Of a DNA stretch of 36,322 nt, positions 14,997-23,794 are shown in pieces. The notes beneath the pieces were generated by a model. The model was not told the DNA's origin and did not search any database. It saw nothing but the letters and a program-made list of their open reading frames with translations. The position numbers and the translations under genes are program-made. The stretch covers positions 1 through 36,322 of the forward strand of contig JAIPGA010000018.1 of the NCBI GenBank assembly GCA_021736445.1, written 5' to 3'. Source of the DNA: Synergistales bacterium (GTDB lineage: Bacteria > Synergistota > Synergistia > Synergistales > Aminiphilaceae). Within the stretch, counting starts at the first letter, position 1. Each line of letters opens with the position of its first letter.

Positions 14997-15037
14997 AGCT
15001 TCTGCGGAGACGCACTACCTCCGCCCCCGCAGAAGCT
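14997..15037. terminator. Bidirectional-type hairpin after the PAS-GGDEF gene
   Basis: AGCTTCTGCGG (14997-15007) pairs exactly with CCGCAGAAGCT (15027-15037), an 11-bp stem with a 19-base loop. It lies nine bases past the PAS-GGDEF stop and also touches the stop of the convergent MFS remnant. There is no T-run. Confidence 0.55.
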
Positions 15038-15263
15038 ACTCCAATTCTTCCAGATTCTTCCCCTTTGCCTCGATGCCGAACCGCCAGGCAACCACCGCAC
15101 CGAGCAGGGAGGTGTCGATCAAGATATACAGGAGGTTCCGGGTACCCATATCCTGAAAGAGAATGGGAAAGAGGAAGGCCGTCGTCACCGCCCCGATTGT
15201 GGGGAAGGCAACAGGTATGCAAAGGACCCGTCCAACGGCCTTCCGGGCAATAGAGGACTGCAC
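15036..15263 (-). pseudogene. C-terminal remnant of an MFS (sugar-porter-like) transporter
   Basis: A 75-codon open frame with two hydrophobic helices ending WRFGIEAKGKNLEELE. This closely resembles the C-terminal tail of sugar-porter-type MFS proteins (last helix then ETKGxSLEE). Reading a few codons upstream of the GTG at 15263 gives CYAES, similar to the family segment before helix 11 (YAE.FPT). Only about the last two of twelve helices remain, and there is no good ribosome binding site. The rest is replaced by the terminator of the adjacent binding-protein gene at 15287. It is probably a deletion relic. A small intact two-helix protein is the alternative. Confidence 0.5.
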
Positions 15264-15286: not shown

Positions 15287-15318
15287 AGCAGGCCCGCGGC
15301 GGGTGCCGCGGGCCTGCT
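15287..15318 (-). terminator. Strong hairpin after the solute-binding protein gene
   Basis: A 14-bp perfect, GC-rich stem (AGCAGGCCCGCGGC and its complement) with the 4-base loop GGGT, 29 bases beyond the binding protein stop. No T-run follows on the minus strand. Confidence 0.65.
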
Positions 15319-15347: not shown

Positions 15348-16094
15348 CTACTTAAACCACTTTTCGTAGAGTTCCTTCCGGTGCTCCCGGACCGCCTCGT
15401 TCACCGCTTCCATGAGGGCGTCGTTCCCCTGGGGCATGGCGACGGCATAGCGTTCACGGGTCAGCCGATCCTCCAGGGCCTTGAGGCTCTCATTCTCCCT
15501 GGCGAGCCAGAGGATGCCGGTGCCGTCGTAGATGGCGGCCTGGGCTTCGCCGGAGGCCACCGCCCCGGCCAGCTCCTTGACGGTCTGGAAGGTCACGATG
15601 TCGTCGGTCATCTCCCTGGCCAGGCTGTGGCCGGTGGTGTCCTCCTGTACGGCGATACGCTTGCCCTCCAGATCGTCCGCGGTGGCGATCGGACCGCCAC
15701 GCTTGACCAGGGCCATCTGACCGGTCATGAAGTACCAGTCAGAGAAGGCGCAGATCTCCGCACGCTCCGGGGTCACCGTGATGGCGGCGATAGCGATGTC
15801 GAAGGGCTCCCAGTCGAAGCCTTCCGACCAGGCTTCGGTGATGTCGCTCCAGGGCATCGGCTTCCCTTCCAGCTCCACACCGAGCTTCTCGGCAACGGCC
15901 TCGGCCATGTCCGCATCGAGCCCTTTGGGGATGCCGTCCTCCATGAAGAAGAACGGTTTGTTCGTCGCCTCGTCCCAGGCGACGCGAATCGTCCCGCGCT
16001 CCTGGATCTCCTGCAGCGTCGCACCCTGTGCCGCAGCACCCAGGGCAACCGTCGCGACAAAAACCATCGCAACCATCAGTACCAGCTTCCGCAT
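15348..16094 (-). CDS. Periplasmic amino-acid-type solute-binding protein, coupled to a chemoreceptor gene
   Basis: 248 residues. The signal peptide (RKLVLMVAMVFVATVALGAAA) has no lipobox, so a soluble periplasmic protein is expected. The mature part is a PBPb / family-3 binding protein: IRVAWDEATNKPFFF, GLDADMAEAVAEKLGV, the ligand-binding stretch AAITVTPERAEICAFS, then VQEDTTGHSLA and QAAIYDGTG. The TPER arginine normally binds the amino acid carboxylate. ATG 16094 has GAGGAG upstream and starts seven bases after the chemoreceptor stop. No permease or ATPase gene is nearby. It may deliver ligand to the receptor rather than to a transporter (inference). Confidence 0.88.
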   Translation of the reverse strand: MRKLVLMVAMVFVATVALGAAAQGATLQEIQERGTIRVAWDEATNKPFFFMEDGIPKGLDADMAEAVAEKLGVELEGKPMPWSDITEAWSEGFDWEPFDIAIAAITVTPERAEICAFSDWYFMTGQMALVKRGGPIATADDLEGKRIAVQEDTTGHSLAREMTDDIVTFQTVKELAGAVASGEAQAAIYDGTGILWLARENESLKALEDRLTRERYAVAMPQGNDALMEAVNEAVREHRKELYEKWFK

Positions 16095-16101
16095 GCAACA
16101 A

Positions 16102-18294
16102 TCACTCCTCTTCAGATATATTGGCACCGCCCTCTTCGTGCGAAGGCAGCTGTGCCCTCTGTTCGGGAAGCGCAAGCCCCTCATCGGCATCCACCGCCCC
16201 GTCGATCCTGAACCGTGCCAGCAGCTCCCGGATCCGTCGTGCGCTCTCGGAGACACGTTCCGATTCGGTAACCACCGCTTCGGAATCACGGAGGGTCGAC
16301 TGCGAGGAGCTCCGGATCTCCTCCACCCGCTGCACCACCTCGGTGGTCCCCTGTGTGACCTGGTCGACCGCTTCGGCCATCTCCCGACTGGAGGCAGCCT
16401 GCTCCTCCGACACGGCGGCCAGATTCTGGACAACGTTATCAACGTTTTCGATCTCCTGCACAGCAAGGTGGAGCTTGCCCCGCGCCTCTCCGGCCCGCTT
16501 CAGTGTCCTTTCGAGGACACCCTTGGTCTCGCGGGTACTGTCGATGGATTCCGCAGCCTGGCCCTCCAGGGTCTCGATCAGCGAACTGATCTCCCCGGCG
16601 GCCTTGCCGGACTCCTCGGCAAGCTTCCGCACCTCTTCGGCCACTACGGCGAACCCGCGCCCGGCCTCCCCGGCCCTGGCCGCTTCGATGGCCGCGTTGA
16701 GGGCCAGCAGGTTCGTCTGGTCCGCTATGTTGTTGATGGTGTTGACAAACGTGGAGATCTGTTCCACCGACTCCGAAAGGGAGCGGATCCCCGCGAGGTT
16801 CCTCTCGGAGGATCTGTTGACATCGAGGACATCGTTCATCACCGCCTCGACACGCTCCGTCGCGTCGGTAGCGGTCTCCCTGGTCTTTTTGGAGGATTCC
16901 GCTCCTTCCGCCGAGGAATCCGCCGCCGACTGGGCACTGCCGGAGACCTCCTCGATCCCGGCGTTGGTCTCCTCCAGGGCGGCGGAGTTGGACTCCGAAC
17001 GGGAGGCCACATCCTCGACGGCGCCGGTCACCTGCTGCATGGCGTTGCGGGAGCGCTCGGCCACCTCGGAGAGCGCGACCACACGCTCCGCGGTGCCCTT
17101 CGTTTCCTCTACGATGGAGCGTACAATCTCACGCTGGGAGGAAACCATCTTCTCCAGTGCTCCGGCGATCTCCCCGACCTCGTCCCTGGTGTCCAGACCA
17201 AAGGCTCCTCTGGAAACGGTGAGGTCGCCCTCGCCTCCCCGTCGGGCCATCTCCACTACCGAACGGAGGGGCCTGGCCATGCTTCTGTGGACCAACGTGC
17301 AGACCGCCATGCTGGCGAGCACCGAGAGCGCTACGGCGACCAACACCGTACGCACCGTTCCCTTGAGCTGGGACACCATACCGTCGGCCAGCGCATTGAC
17401 CTGGGTCACCGCACTTCTGTTTACGTCGCCGGCCACGGCGATCACCTCTCCCGCAGCCTCCTCCAGATCAGTATAGAGGGCGGCCACACGGTTCCAGCTC
17501 TCCACAAGATCCCCTACAGCCTGTTCATAGGACGACAGCGCCTCCAGGACCGCTCCAAGCTCCTTCTTGCTCGCCCGGACGTAGGTGTCCCCTTCCAGCT
17601 CTTCCAGGGTACTCCGGATCTTCGGGAGTTCTTCCATGGCCCTGTCAACGATCCCCGTATCCCGGAGTGTCTGCGCCCGGTACAGCGCCTTTTCGATGGC
17701 CCCCACTCCTTCGACAATCCGATGGGCCTCCCTGATACGTTCCGTCCGGGCCAGGATCGCCTCGGCACCCATCTCGAACTCCACCTCGTTCCGGAGTTCG
17801 GCATACTCGTTCTCGATGAAGGAGTTCATGCTCTTCGTAAAGGTGGTTGACGCCTGATCGGCACGATTGCGGTAGCGCTGGATCGACGAAACGGCCTTCT
17901 GCGCCTCGGCAGCGATGGAACCGAAACGCTCCAGGGCATGGCGGGCCTGTTTCCGGCCCTTCTCCAATCGCTCCATTCCCGCCGTCGCCCGGGCCAGCTC
18001 CGCCGCATCCCCGAGATAGCCTCTGGTTCGTTCCAGCGCCTCTTCGCCGGCCTCGCCGTAGCGCTCTTCTTCGCTGAAGACGAAGCCCCGGAAATTCGAA
18101 ACGGCATCGAGGGCCGAACGTTCGATCCCGTGGGCGATGTTGATCTCCCGGAATCTCGGTCCCGCCAGATCCTCCGTTTTGGTCTGGACATCCCCCAGGT
18201 TGAGCCATATCAAACCGCCGACAGCGACAAAAAGAAGCAGCAGAAAGACAAATCCCGCCGCCATCCGTGTACCGATACGCAGATTGCCAAGCAA
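16102..18294 (-). CDS. Methyl-accepting chemotaxis protein with a large helical periplasmic domain
   Basis: About 730 residues. One membrane helix near the N-terminus ([20 protein letters not shown]), then about 285 predicted-helical periplasmic residues (possibly a helical bimodular-type sensor). A second helix ([18 protein letters not shown]) follows, then HAMP and a signalling domain with the invariant tip region [20 protein letters not shown]. There is no CheB/CheR-tethering pentapeptide at the C-terminus. The TTG start at 18294 is preferred: it follows AAGGGGGA and leaves a leader of about 45 bases from the predicted promoter. The in-frame ATG at 18336 (744 residues) has no site and would be nearly leaderless. 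It is followed seven bases later by the binding-protein gene. Confidence 0.92.
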
Positions 18295-18425: not shown

Positions 18426-19328
18426 CTACAGGGTGCGGGCGATGGAGGGCAAAAAGAGGGTGACGGCGACAGGGGGGACGAACAGGACCGACAACAGGGG
18501 GCGGATCCAGGCAAGACCGGGGAACAGCACCACCACGGCCAGGAGGCCCGCGCCCACAAGCAGGAAGGCCAGGCCCCACAACAGGGTGGCCAGGGCGTTG
18601 GACCTGGTAAAGGCGGTCTTGCTGCGCTCCTGAAACGTGTAGTTCCACTGGGTGTACCGACTGGTCAAGGGGGTAGAGGAACGCAGGGAGAGCAGCAGGC
18701 ACACCGCAAGCGCGGCGAAACCGAGGGGAAGGCCGAAGCGTTCCGTAAACGCCGGATCGGCGAGGTACCCTCCAACCATGGCAAGCGGAACGATCAGGGT
18801 ACTCCAGTCGAGAAGGGTGACCTCGATATAGAGCCACCGGTAGAAAAAGAACACCATCCCTGCAACAGCGGCGAACCAGAGCCCGGCGTGCAGTGTCGGC
18901 GCGTCCCGTTCCAGGGAGAACCAGAGCAGAACCCAGGGAAACAGAGCGAACCAGAACCAGAGATCGCCCCTGACCTTCACCGGCCCACCGGGGTAGCGTG
19001 GGGGACGTTCCTCCCGCTCCAGAGGGAAGAATTCCCTAAACCGACGCAGCAGGGCGAGCTCTCCCGTCGCCCTGATCCGGCCTTCCCGCACCAGACGTTC
19101 CCCGTCCTCGCCGTCATCCGTCAGGCGGCGGAGGACCTCCGGGGAGGCCTTGACGCGGAGCTTTGGATGCTGAGCCCTTCCCTCCCACACCGAACACTGT
19201 CCGTCGGAGATGGACAGCACGTAGTACCCCTCCTGCTCTCCAACAGCAACAAACTCGATCTCCGCCTGGAGGTTCCCCGCCGCCCGGGGATGGAAGCGCT
19301 CCGCCATCCGCTCCAGTTCGTTCCGCAT
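18426..19328 (-). CDS. SCP2 sterol-carrier-like domain fused to a multi-helix membrane protein
   Basis: 300 residues from ATG 19328, with GAGGGAGGGA upstream; an upstream in-frame extension to 19583 lacks homology and is rejected. Residues 1-95 look like an SCP2-type hydrophobic-ligand-binding fold (FHPRAAGNLQAEIEF, YVLSISDGQCSVWEG, LRVKASPEVLRRL, then RATGELALLRRF). The rest has about six membrane helices in pairs, starting with WFWFALFPWVLLWF. I do not recognise a family for the membrane half. The fold suggests lipid or coenzyme A ester binding at the membrane, without further proof. It ends ahead of the chemoreceptor operon on the same strand. Confidence 0.7.
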   Translation of the reverse strand: MRNELERMAERFHPRAAGNLQAEIEFVAVGEQEGYYVLSISDGQCSVWEGRAQHPKLRVKASPEVLRRLTDDGEDGERLVREGRIRATGELALLRRFREFFPLEREERPPRYPGGPVKVRGDLWFWFALFPWVLLWFSLERDAPTLHAGLWFAAVAGMVFFFYRWLYIEVTLLDWSTLIVPLAMVGGYLADPAFTERFGLPLGFAALAVCLLLSLRSSTPLTSRYTQWNYTFQERSKTAFTRSNALATLLWGLAFLLVGAGLLAVVVLFPGLAWIRPLLSVLFVPPVAVTLFLPSIARTL

Positions 19329-19407
19329 TCCGATCCCTCCCTCGCAGTCTCTCTCCTTTGCGATGTCCCGCCGCTCCAGGCAATCACGCCCCTGTGGCAA
19401 TATCGTC

Positions 19408-19416
19408 ATCATACCA
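19408..19416 (-). promoter_or_regulatory. Candidate extended -10 promoter of the SCP2-domain gene
   Basis: TGGTATGAT on the minus strand, 80 bases upstream of the ATG, combines TGn with a 5/6 -10. No good -35 is visible. It follows the BCCT terminator. Confidence 0.35.
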
Positions 19417-19434
19417 CTCTTCCCGCACAGACAG

Positions 19435-19467
19435 GAACGGCCCTCCCCATGACGAGGAAGGCCGTTC
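19435..19467 (-). terminator. Hairpin after the BCCT transporter gene
   Basis: GAACGGCC (19435-19442) pairs with GGCCGTTC (19460-19467). Inner CCTC/GAGG pairing shortens the loop. It lies 36 bases after the transporter stop and ends the betaine operon. Confidence 0.5.
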
Positions 19468-19503
19468 TGGCTGGTCCACAGGAAGATCCGGTTCCTGTGT
19501 CCG

Positions 19504-21033
19504 TCAGATCGTGGGCGACTCGGTGGCCGGTTCGACACGCATGGTCTCGGCCTGCAGACCGCGGTAGAGGGAATAGCAGGCAAAGAGCATGACGATCTCG
19601 AAGGGGAAGGCCGCCGCGATGGAAGCGATCTGCAGCGCCTTGAGGCCCCCGGTCAGCAGCAGGGTGAAGGCCAGGGCCGCCTGCAGTGTCCCCCAGATGG
19701 CCATGTATCCCTTTGGCGGGTTGAGGTTCCCCTGGCTGGAGTACATGGAGAGCACGAAGGTCGCCGAGTTGGCTGAGGTGATGAAGAAGGTGGAGATCAG
19801 CACCAGGGCGGCCAGGGAAAGCAGCATGCCCAGCGGATAGTACTGGAAGACCTCGAAGAGCCCGGTGGAGATGTCGTTGACTATCACCTGGCCCACCTCG
19901 GCGATCCCGGCCAGCTCCAGATTCATTGCAGAAGTCCCGAAGACGGCGAACCAGCAGAAGCTGCCCAGACAGGGCACCAGCAGCACGCCGAACACGAACT
20001 CCCGCACCGTGCGGCCCCGGGAGATCCGGGCGATGAAGGTCCCCACGAAGGGCGCCCAGGCGATCCACCAGGCCCAGTAGAAGAGCGTCCAGGCGCCCTG
20101 CCACTCCGCCAGTGCGCCGCCGAAGGGGGTCATCTTGAGGCTCTCCTGGATGACGGTGTTGAAGTAGTAGCCCATGGAAGTCAGCAGCATCATCAGCGAT
20201 TTGACGGTGGGCCCGATCAGGAAGAAGGCACCCAGGAGGAAGAGGGCGATGTAGAGGTTCATAGTGGAGATGAACTTGATGCCCTTTTCGATACCTGTCA
20301 CCGCCGAGCCGGTGTAGATCAGCCCGATGACCACGATGATCATCAGCTGCGTCATGATGGAGTTGGGGATACTGAAGAGATACTCCAGGCCGCTGCCGAT
20401 CTGGAGCGTCCCCAGACCCAGGGAGGTGGCGATCCCGGCAACGGTGGCGAAGATGGCGAGCACATCGATGGTCTTGCCGATGGGGCCGCGCACACCCTTC
20501 TCCCCCAGGATGGGCAGGAAAACGCTGCTGATCAGCCCAGGCGCATTCTTGCGGAACTGGAAGAAAGCCAGAGACAGGGCGATGACGCCGTAGCTTGCCC
20601 AGGGGTGGATCCCCCAGTGGAGGAAGGAGATCTGCATCGCCTGCATGGCGGCCTCAGGGGTCTCCCCCGGCCCCACAGGGGGGCTCATGAAGTGGTACAT
20701 GGGCTCGCCGATCCCGTAGAAGACCAGGCCGATACCCATCCCGGCGCTGAAGAGCATGGCGAACCAGGACACGTTGGAGAACTCCGGCGTGGAATCCGGC
20801 GGACCGAGCTTGACCTTCCCGAAGGGGCCCAGCCCCATAAACAGCAGAAAGACAACAAAGATGGACATGGAGAGCATGTAGCTCCAGCCCATGTTGGCGA
20901 TCAGGAAATTGAAGGTTCCGTTGGCCGCCCCGCTGAAGGTCTCGGGGGAAAAGAGCCCCCAGAGCACGACGCCGACTGTGATCACAGGCGCAATAACGAA
21001 TACGGCATTCAAGCCGCCTGAACGCGACTGCAT
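19504..21033 (-). CDS. BCCT-family transporter (betaine/carnitine/choline type)
   Basis: 509 residues and 12 membrane helices, typical of BCCT carriers. Signatures: the glycine-rich stretch GMGIGLVFYGIGEPMYHF in TM3, and the Trp box in TM8 (WTLFYWAWWIAWAPF) that cages quaternary ammonium groups in BetP-like carriers, followed by ARISRGRTVREF. The C-terminal tail is short, so osmotic gating as in BetP is unlikely. It is the last gene after grdA-grdI-grdH. Its position argues that it imports glycine betaine for reduction. A strong hairpin in the 118-base gap to grdH (21108-21136) could lower its expression relative to the reductase. Confidence 0.92.
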   Translation of the reverse strand: MQSRSGGLNAVFVIAPVITVGVVLWGLFSPETFSGAANGTFNFLIANMGWSYMLSMSIFVVFLLFMGLGPFGKVKLGPPDSTPEFSNVSWFAMLFSAGMGIGLVFYGIGEPMYHFMSPPVGPGETPEAAMQAMQISFLHWGIHPWASYGVIALSLAFFQFRKNAPGLISSVFLPILGEKGVRGPIGKTIDVLAIFATVAGIATSLGLGTLQIGSGLEYLFSIPNSIMTQLMIIVVIGLIYTGSAVTGIEKGIKFISTMNLYIALFLLGAFFLIGPTVKSLMMLLTSMGYYFNTVIQESLKMTPFGGALAEWQGAWTLFYWAWWIAWAPFVGTFIARISRGRTVREFVFGVLLVPCLGSFCWFAVFGTSAMNLELAGIAEVGQVIVNDISTGLFEVFQYYPLGMLLSLAALVLISTFFITSANSATFVLSMYSSQGNLNPPKGYMAIWGTLQAALAFTLLLTGGLKALQIASIAAAFPFEIVMLFACYSLYRGLQAETMRVEPATESPTI

Positions 21034-21107
21034 CTCTCACTCACCCTTTTCGATCGTCTTTGGTGGTCTGCGTGCCGTACTACAGTCCCGCTGCTCCGCA
21101 CACAAAC

Positions 21108-21136
21108 CTGGAGGAGGCGCAGACCGCCTCCTCCAG
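21108..21136 (-). terminator. 12-bp hairpin between grdH and the BCCT gene
   Basis: CTGGAGGAGGCG (21108-21119) pairs perfectly with CGCCTCCTCCAG (21125-21136), 5-base loop. On the minus strand it is followed by GTTTGTGTG. It is likely a partial terminator inside the operon. Confidence 0.65.
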
Positions 21137-21151
21137 CCGGTTCATCTACAG

Positions 21152-22465
21152 CTAGACCTTCACGGGGAACTGGGTCTGTTCCTCCACCGGGGTGGTCAGG
21201 GCGTCGAAGGCCACTCCCACCCGATGCAGGCGGAGCTTCCACTCGGCCTCCTCCGACGCGTCGGGGAGCCCCAGCGGGTACGGCACGGAAACAGTCTGGA
21301 CAATGCGGTTGGAGCCCACACTGAGGGCGATGTCCACCAGGTTGCAGAGGACGGTCACGGGGATCCCCGTACGCTCGATCTCTTTTGCCATCGTTGCACC
21401 GCAACGAGTACAGGTTCCTCAGGTGGCGACAAGCAGAACGGCGTCGATCTCGGCCTCATGCAGCTCCGCGGCGATCTCGCGTCCCATGCGGGCCGCCTCG
21501 CCCTGGGAGGTCCCGGTCCCGACAGTGGAGTAGAAGAAGGGATGCAGCGACCCGAATTTGCCTTCCTTCAGGTAGGTCTTCACCGCATCCAGCGGCAGAA
21601 TCCGGTTGGGGTTGGCGTTGGCCGCAGCGGGGTCGAAACCGGCGTGGATGGTCTTGTATTCGCCCGCCGGAAGGACGTCCAGCTCGGAGATGTCGTACTT
21701 GCCCCACTTGGTGGCCGAGGCGGACTGGATATGGTCCGGGTTGTCGCTGGGAACGATGCCGCCGGAGGTCACCAGGGCCACCCTGGCCTTCGAGAGATCG
21801 GAGACCGCTTCGGCGATGGGGATCCGCTCGGTCTTGGGGATGGGCAGCTCTGTGCGCACGGGCTCTCCATTCAGCTTCCGGAGCAGCATGTCCACCACGC
21901 GGTCCGCGGCCTGGACGGGTTCGTCCAGGAAGTACTGGTGCCGGATCCCCCGGGGGAAGTATCCTTCTTCTGCTGCCGGACGGAGTTCCTCGCCGGCGAC
22001 GATCCTGTTGATGAAGGCCGTCATCCTGGTGAGATCCTTTTTCATGGAGGTGGCCTTCCTGCCGGCGGGGAAGATGTACATGTCCTTCACGAACATCTCC
22101 ACACCGGGGTTCTCCTCGTTCATCGCCGTCACCACGGGGACGCCGAAGCGTTCCGAGACGGCCTTGCCGACCTGGCCGCAGGCGTTGGCGTAACGGCCCG
22201 CCAGGAAGGACGGACCGGCCACGAAGAGGTCGAACTCGATCCCGTCCAGCATAGCGAGGACATCCTTGACGGCGCCTTCCGGGTCGGCGGTCATGTGGTT
22301 GTCGCCGCCGATGATGGTGTGGGTCACCTCGGCATCCGCCAGCATGCTGTCCAACAGCTGGGCGGGCCCGACGGTTCCCTCCCGGAGCTCCGGCGCCATG
22401 TCGGCCTTCTCTTCACCGCCGACCTGGCCGAAGAACTGGTTGATGTAATGGATCACCTTTTTCAT
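21152..22465 (-). CDS. grdH: Betaine reductase component B, selenocysteine subunit (GrdH; GrdB/GrdF family)
   Basis: A 437-residue selenoprotein. The in-frame TGA at 21419-21421 encodes Sec349 in the motif VATUGTCTRCG, so U349-xx-C352-xx-C355, the family's active site. Without readthrough the gene appears as two pieces (348 and about 79 residues); the frame continues with MAKEIERTGIPVTVLCNLVDIA, as in family members. Component B binds the substrate and passes the carboxymethyl group to the selenium of GrdA. The ATG has GGGGAGG upstream. A SECIS-like hairpin follows the TGA. It is assigned to betaine rather than glycine because the partner GrdI lacks the pyruvoyl cysteine and a BCCT carrier follows. 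Sarcosine (GrdF) is the main alternative. Confidence 0.9.
21391..21407 (-). promoter_or_regulatory. SECIS-like hairpin in grdH
   Basis: On the minus strand TCGTTGC-GGT-GCAACGA forms a 7-bp stem with a GGU triloop. The stem begins 11 bases after the selenocysteine TGA and the loop starts 18 bases after it. Bacterial SECIS elements have a short stem with a GU-containing apical loop at about this distance, so this should recruit SelB. Confidence 0.7.
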
Positions 22466-22483
22466 CGTGCTTCCTCCCCTCCC

Positions 22484-23794
22484 CTAGTACTCCACACAGG
22501 TCTTCACGGAGAACCCGGCGATCTCATCACCGCAGAACATGGCGTTGTTCTCCATGACCAGCGAGCCGTCTTCGCGGACGCAGCCTTCCCATCCTCCGGA
22601 GAGGCCGTCCCTGGCCAGGGACTCCAGCTCACCGATGACGGTGTCCATAGGGGGCAGCTCGATCAGCTGGGAGACGTTGCCGGTGGAGACGATGGCGTCC
22701 GCCGATTCGTGGAGGGAGACCAGCGGCTGGGACTGTCCGTCCCGGCCGGTGCACTCGTTGGTGATGCCTGCGGTCTTGATGCCCGCCCTCTCCAGCTCGA
22801 CGATGGCCTGAATGAAGTCCACATCGGGGTTGCCGTAGCCCTCTTCGGCCACGATGGCGCCTTCCGCCCCGAGATGCTCGGCCATCCGGCGGAGCATGAT
22901 CGCCGAACGGCGCTTCTGCTCCATGGAGACATTGAGGTTGGAGACGATGACGCCCAGGAAGTTGAGGGTTTCGCCGTGCTCCTTCATGAGCCGCTTGATG
23001 GTGGGGTTGTTCTGGTGGTCGTAGGTGGACATCTTGGAGGAAACAGGCATGAAGCTCCCCGAGATGACGGCGCCGTCGAAGATTTCATTGGGGTGCATGA
23101 AGGTGGGAAGCATCCGGTTGCCGTCCCAGCCGTAGACCAGCGAGTTGTAGCCGAGCTCCTCCATCTGGGTCTGGAGCTGAACCACATAGACCACCGAGGG
23201 CAGCTCCTTCAGGCGCTCCTCCCGGCCGGCCACAGGCTCGAGGTCGAAGACCTCCATCTCCTCCGGCTCAGCCTCGGCGACAGCCGTGCCGATGTACTCG
23301 GCGAGCTTGTGTCCGGCGGCGCGGAGGGCGATATTCTTCTTCTGCTGCTCGTAGCGCTCGTCCTCCTCGTCGGTGTCGCCGACCAGGACGATGTTTTTGA
23401 GCTGCGAGTAGGGGTAGGTGTACTTGGCGCCGGGGCCGCTCATGTCGATCAGACCGTCCTGGAAGCCGCCCCAGTGCTTCCCGACAACGGTGACACAGCA
23501 GTCTTTCAGCGCGTGGGTCCGGCCCGATCCGACCGGCTCGAGATCGTTGTTGTACCCGGGGAACATCACGCCGCCGTCCACCTTGCAGCGGGGCTCGATG
23601 ACCTCCTTGACGGGAACGAGCCGGACCGCGTCGCCGGGGGCGACGACCCGGATGTCGGCATCGGTGATATGCTCGTCCTCGTAGACGACCTCCAGGGCCT
23701 CCTGCTTGTTGATGGTCAGCGTGCCCTTCTCGTAGCGTGTGGCGTCACCAAAGGCAATCTCTTTCACGTGGAACGAACCGAGTTCGAGTCGCAT
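22484..23794 (-). CDS. grdI: Betaine reductase component B, second subunit (GrdI; GrdE/GrdG family)
   Basis: 436 residues, full length for the family. Recognisable blocks: FGDATRYEKGTLTINK near the start, FQDGLIDMSGPGAKYTYPYS, MHPNEIFDGAVISGSFMP (about 233-250), and GITNECTGRDGQSQPLVS (about 343-360). In glycine reductase the GrdE precursor is cleaved at a cysteine near residue 242 to create a pyruvoyl group. Here the matching region, around residues 240-260, has no cysteine (MPVSSKMSTY). That fits the uncleaved betaine and sarcosine subunits. It lies 12 bases after grdA and 18 before grdH, with a GGGAGGG site. Confidence 0.9.
   Translation of the reverse strand: MRLELGSFHVKEIAFGDATRYEKGTLTINKQEALEVVYEDEHITDADIRVVAPGDAVRLVPVKEVIEPRCKVDGGVMFPGYNNDLEPVGSGRTHALKDCCVTVVGKHWGGFQDGLIDMSGPGAKYTYPYSQLKNIVLVGDTDEEDERYEQQKKNIALRAAGHKLAEYIGTAVAEAEPEEMEVFDLEPVAGREERLKELPSVVYVVQLQTQMEELGYNSLVYGWDGNRMLPTFMHPNEIFDGAVISGSFMPVSSKMSTYDHQNNPTIKRLMKEHGETLNFLGVIVSNLNVSMEQKRRSAIMLRRMAEHLGAEGAIVAEEGYGNPDVDFIQAIVELERAGIKTAGITNECTGRDGQSQPLVSLHESADAIVSTGNVSQLIELPPMDTVIGELESLARDGLSGGWEGCVREDGSLVMENNAMFCGDEIAGFSVKTCVEY

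Follow-up and report, generated by a model that had tools for sequence, protein, structure and literature searches.

A chemoreceptor gene paired with an amino-acid-type binding-protein gene in Synergistota, a candidate two-protein periplasmic sensor

In a 36,322-nucleotide stretch of a Synergistota genome, hereafter the window, a chemoreceptor (MCP) gene is closely followed by a gene for a solute-binding protein (SBP), and such a pairing without a transporter was found at four loci. On genome and structure-prediction evidence, we consider it likely that the two products act as a dedicated periplasmic sensor, in which the SBP would present an amino acid to the tip of the receptor's helical bimodular (HBM) domain. 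The first-pass annotation of the window had suggested a two-protein sensor of this sort, and the suggestion gains support from the recurrence of the pair, the two clades formed by its partners, a single amino-acid permease in the genome that has its own SBP, the HBM/TorS fold of the receptor and the conservation of its tip. That annotation was partly confirmed: the pair is real, and what it said of a terminator, of translational linkage and of domain size has been corrected.

The receptor and the binding protein

Both genes lie on the minus strand (Table 1). Between the stop codon of the receptor (16104-16102) and the ATG of the SBP (16094) lie 7 nt, exactly as first annotated; the translational linkage claimed for the two genes fits this spacing, from which alone it was read. 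The annotated receptor start at TTG 18294, giving 730 aa, was kept over the longer reading from ATG 18336 (744 aa), because AAGGGGGAAG at 18309-18300 stands 5 nt before the TTG as a ribosome-binding site and because the start is arranged likewise in the Thermovirga homologue. The "strong terminator" said to follow the SBP gene is a perfect hairpin (about -34 kcal/mol, z -6.1 on folding), but it lacks a T-run and is absent from the list of the terminator scan, and we dropped it as a terminator. An open stretch after the SBP gene (15016-15231, minus) resembles by eye the C-terminus of an MFS transporter and had no match in Pfam.

Table 1. Features of the receptor-SBP pair in the window
Feature	Position	Strand	Basis
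Chemoreceptor (MCP)	16102..18294	minus	Pfam HAMP and MCPsignal, hydropathy TMs
Periplasmic ligand-binding domain, predicted HBM fold, residues 44-330 (ATG numbering)	17347..18207	minus	AlphaFold2 model
Part A of the membrane-distal tip (H3-H4 turn, residues 177-193), where the SBP is proposed to dock	17758..17808	minus	pairwise identity
Part B of the membrane-distal tip (H5-H6 turn, residues 248-260), where the SBP is proposed to dock	17557..17595	minus	pairwise identity
MCP signalling domain, canonical hairpin tip	16351..16899	minus	PF00015, alignment
GAGGAG, SBP ribosome-binding site, extreme 3' end of receptor coding region	16105..16110	minus	read from sequence
SBP (SBP_bac_3), polar-amino-acid type, 248 aa	15348..16094	minus	PF00497
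14-bp G+C hairpin 3' of SBP gene, no T-run	15287..15318	minus	fold

The receptor consists of TM1, an HBM-like periplasmic domain, TM2, a HAMP domain (32 bits) and an MCP signalling domain (148 bits), with the TMs placed by hydropathy at residues 25-43 and 331-349 (ATG numbering). This is the layout of HBM chemoreceptors, in which a periplasmic domain of about 250-285 aa stands between the two TMs. The periplasmic domain had been described as unusually large and helical; it is all helical in the model, but its roughly 285 residues are an ordinary size for HBM. An AlphaFold2 model of residues 18-400, built from a two-sequence alignment (pLDDT 82.8, pTM 0.63), matched most closely McpS, an HBM chemoreceptor of Pseudomonas putida that binds malate or succinate directly (Z 21.5, 237 of 238 residues aligned, 2.2 A, 8% identity). 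Further matches were TorS (Z 18.9), TorS with TorT (18.5), PilJ (18.1) and McpZ (17.3), and the first match outside these proteins had a Z of 15.0. Since helical bundles reach a Z of about 13-14 through their common arrangement, the HBM-like matches exceed this background, by a margin that is not great for the weaker ones. The domain is accordingly predicted from the model to be of the HBM type, a stacked double four-helix bundle.

The window receptor had no match to the Pfam HBM family (PF16591) at E<=0.01, and the receptor of a paired locus in the genus Thermovirga (L069, genome G012) reached 30.4, just above the cut-off of 29.8, in a match that covers part of the model. When the receptor-domain profile was compared with the sequences of solved structures, no chemoreceptor domain was among the matches; the best of them, ancestral PcpI (E 4e-4), was read as a helical-bundle match.

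The binding protein scored 90.7 bits against PF00497 (cut-off 26.4) and has a Sec-type signal peptide with a hydrophobic segment and no lipobox cysteine. Its model (pLDDT 90.8) has amino-acid binders as the closest solved structures, namely ancestral arginine/glutamine and CDT ancestors, T. maritima ArgBP and GlnBP. Residues R111 and D190 were invariant in 11 aligned sequences and align with the amino-acid site of GlnBP, whose Arg and Asp we take to bind the alpha-carboxylate and the alpha-ammonium group of the amino acid. The ligand is probably an L-alpha-amino acid.

Upstream on the same strand (18426-23794) are betaine reductase-type genes together with genes for a membrane protein and a BCCT transporter of the betaine type. 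The reductase genes scored 547 bits (GrdH-like) and 388 bits (GrdG-like), both under the models' curated cut-offs, and the transporter scored 647.7 against the betaine model (cut-off 650). A TGA at 21419-21421 is followed in frame by GTCTRCGA, presumably as expected for selenocysteine in a betaine reductase-type gene. These genes hint at glycine-related ligands for the SBP, but the betaine neighbourhood is not kept in Thermovirga, where the neighbours differ. No operon with them is claimed, given gaps of about 160 nt (counted from 19340, the start favoured for the intervening gene) and 89 nt (ending at ATG 18336).

Recurrence of the pair and the clade around its binding protein

The window SBP used alone as a query gave no match in the named genomes; an alignment-based search found seven loci, including Thermovirga and Dethiosulfovibrio. 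Conservation of the pair across genomes, the check proposed with the first annotation, was borne out: besides the window, the pairing occurs at a second locus of the same genome (C44) and in two genomes of the genus Thermovirga (G012 and G021, the latter being Thermovirga), a sample of four loci of which two come from close relatives. The order is MCP-SBP in the window and at C44 and reversed in the other two, and the neighbouring genes differ. The C44 SBP is 44% identical to that of the window, and the receptor domains at the other three loci share 26-31% identity with the window's over the domain. On the trees, the four paired SBPs form one clade (96/86) and so do the four receptor domains (100/98). 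In the C44 receptor (L049:6677-8900), a TAG interrupts the frame close to the start and the reading frame changes close to the end, either from assembly error or from decay; the stop codon of the frame as read is separated from the start of its SBP by about 258 nt. At the two Thermovirga loci (L069, L070), inverted repeats were seen by eye between the SBP and receptor genes; perhaps more SBP than receptor is made there.

A search for further receptor domains gave 32 matches (E<1e-8), of which 31 were examined and one fragment (G077:C397) was left out. None of the 31 had an SBP within the stretch examined (up to about 7 kb per side, less at contig ends), so that a domain of this kind needs no adjacent SBP in general.

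The window genome (locus G000:C18; 2.45 Mb, 97.6% complete) contains 25 BPD_transp_1 matches. Only one permease, at C25, exceeded the cut-off for the polar-amino-acid (HEQRo) type, a second at C76 falling below it. The C25 permease has its own SBP and ATPase adjacent, and this SBP falls in the ABC clade of the tree, far from the window SBP. Near the window pair there is no adjacent permease or ATPase gene, as first annotated, and no amino-acid permease within 3 kb. Having found no cognate permease and ATPase near it, we propose that the window SBP is not a subunit of an ABC importer. The genome also has CheW-domain genes, two of them CheA-sized.

We surveyed SBPs in 185 Synergistota genomes and placed 60 on a tree, comprising 57 of 60 listed places (without G025, G051:C11 and G124:C298), G044 and, from the window genome, C47 and C28; groups were labelled by their neighbouring genes before the tree was built. 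A split (97/88) separated 36 SBPs, including the window's, from the other 24. A polar-amino-acid permease within 3 kb was found for none of the 36, with flanks shortened by contig ends for several (e.g., to 379 bases on one flank of G137), versus 17 of the 24. These 17 comprise two labelled far and 15 labelled ABC, the latter a count of 15/15 by construction because that label was given for the permease beside them.

Within the 36-member clade, four SBPs are adjacent to an MCP gene, eight follow a symporter gene, 13 are joined to an MCP (one of them, G183, counted despite a frame break that splits the gene) and three lie beside ParA/MinD-like ATPase genes; one precedes a GAF-GGDEF gene, one overlaps an HD-domain gene, four stand alone and two are unclear. 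The symporter-linked SBPs form one clade (100/100), drawn from Dethiosulfovibrio and from a single genome outside its family. All eight come directly after a sodium:neurotransmitter symporter gene (L071:5679-7808, L072-L075, L161, L162, L163), and both symporters tested have Pfam SNF; the pair is possibly an SBP-assisted secondary transporter. The MCP-joined SBPs, whose clade has weak support (78/60), carry SBP_bac_3 C-terminal to the MCP signalling domain (L053-L058, L082, L083, L084, L161:4312-6090, L165, L166). These chemoreceptors are mostly TM-free, a few having a short hydrophobic N-terminus, and their binding domain would be cytoplasmic. The SBP before the GAF-GGDEF gene (L051:4449-7376) and the one overlapping the HD-domain gene, which encodes two TMs (L052:4658-7866), possibly feed cyclic-di-GMP receptors. 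Of the ATPase genes beside SBPs (L078:5686-7466, L079, L081), the one tested has 4Fe-4S domains. Our literature searches found no report of MCP-SBP_bac_3 fusions and, by title, nothing relevant on symporter-SBP pairs.

It is possible, and in our view close to an even call, that an amino-acid-SBP lineage in Synergistota left ABC transport and became a sensing module. Some members would be soluble periplasmic partners docking on the tip of HBM chemoreceptors, as in the window pair. Others would act next to the gene of a cyclic-di-GMP-type receptor, form the C-terminus of MCPs that mostly lack membrane segments, so that a binding protein would have been transferred into the cytoplasm, or be paired with the genes of Na+:neurotransmitter-type symporters.

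Conservation of the membrane-distal tip

By the helix lengths of the model, the turns furthest from the membrane are H3-H4 (about 187-190) and H5-H6 (about 251-253). We compared the four SBP-paired receptors with 29 unpaired relatives, leaving out L146, which had no match to the window's domain, and L148, a near-copy of L147. Pairwise identity among the paired receptors is 56% at the tip (58% at 177-193 and 54% at 248-260) versus 29% elsewhere, whereas among the unpaired ones it is 24% at the tip (20% and 30%, respectively) and 30% elsewhere. The tip excess of 0.272 in the paired receptors was reached by none of 14,145 unpaired quartets of similar overall identity. Without G021 the effect persisted, at 0.254, with none of 17,374 unpaired triples as high. 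As the two tip windows had been picked after viewing the conservation profile, we repeated it as a scan over the whole length, taking the best window wherever it fell. The peak lay at residue 186 with an excess of 0.365, and none of 4,245 quartets was as high, the thin margin being to a maximum of 0.360. These quartet counts are not probabilities because the unpaired receptors are mutually related. In these alignments, conservation of the distal tip is confined to the SBP-paired receptors.

A proposed two-protein sensor and its precedents

In the mechanism that we propose, the small soluble SBP would bind an L-alpha-amino acid and close, and the closed form would dock where the receptor's HBM domain is furthest from the membrane, at its tip. 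The resulting shift would be transmitted through the long helix H6 and then TM2 into the HAMP and MCP signalling domains, and from there the signal would pass to CheA/CheW. The docking itself, the class of ligand, and the course and sign of the signalling response are inferred.

Transport and sensing could instead be combined, with the SBP as an extra subunit that feeds the C25 importer and also touches the receptor, as PstS and maltose-binding protein do. Several SBPs can share one importer (LAO/HisJ), and the genome does have one polar-amino-acid permease with an ATPase. Dual-role SBPs are described as well, PstS among them (PMC6321045). We nevertheless regard this reading as unlikely, because the C25 SBP lies in a distant clade, none of the 36 members of the window SBP's clade has an amino-acid permease within 3 kb, and for the 13 SBPs joined to mostly membrane-free MCPs the periplasmic feeding of an ABC importer is implausible.

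Slightly less credible still is direct binding by the receptor, as in McpS, with the SBP merely co-expressed in the same nutrient response. This would suit the best structural match, solved with malate or succinate bound, and the 31 related receptors that stand without an SBP in the stretch examined. It fits poorly with tip conservation limited to SBP-paired receptors and with adjacency kept despite reversed order, and no transporter lies near the SBP to account for the co-expression. Compact genomes do put unrelated genes close together, but adjacency by chance, without function, is very improbable for four loci in two orders with both partners monophyletic, and we rejected it on these loci and on the SBP and receptor-domain trees.

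The BasT-BasB and CosT-CosB genes are reportedly neighbours that act apart from transport. Like the window pair, these Halobacterium salinarum systems consist of a transducer and a partner binding protein, with amino acids as the stimuli in the case of BasT, and BasB and CosB are described as co-purifying with Htrs (PMC3579733). They are archaeal; the window SBP looks soluble, having no lipobox, and the window receptor domain is of the predicted HBM type. CtpL of Pseudomonas aeruginosa resembles the window receptor as an HBM chemoreceptor that is, according to PMC6321045, activated by an SBP, PstS. However, PstS is a component of the phosphate importer PstABC, whereas the window SBP is of the amino-acid type and no cognate importer was found for it. 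The periplasmic domain of TorS, solved in crystal with the SBP TorT that it binds, has the same double four-helix-bundle fold as that predicted for the window receptor (Z 17.3-18.9); TorS is a histidine kinase whose complex with its SBP is reported to answer to TMAO (PMC8534201), whereas the window receptor is an MCP.

SBP-activated receptors are established (PMC9602780, PMC6321045, PMC3579733, PMC6381276, PMC8534201), and with CtpL-PstS and BasB/BasT as precedents, the proposed mechanism is of a known kind. The variation on it lies in the dedicated pairing of an HBM receptor with an amino-acid SBP and in the surrounding SBP clade without ABC partners. Activation through SBPs is thought to be common yet hard to find, as described in PMC6321045, since an SBP is usually part of a transporter and pull-downs are often unsuccessful. 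In the window pair, the genome itself points to the partner, which has no apparent role in transport, and conservation indicates the surface where docking is likely. The pair would therefore offer a clean test case for an HBM receptor reading an SBP, and the wider clade provides natural comparisons, in which the same type of SBP occurs free, fused to an MCP or beside a symporter.
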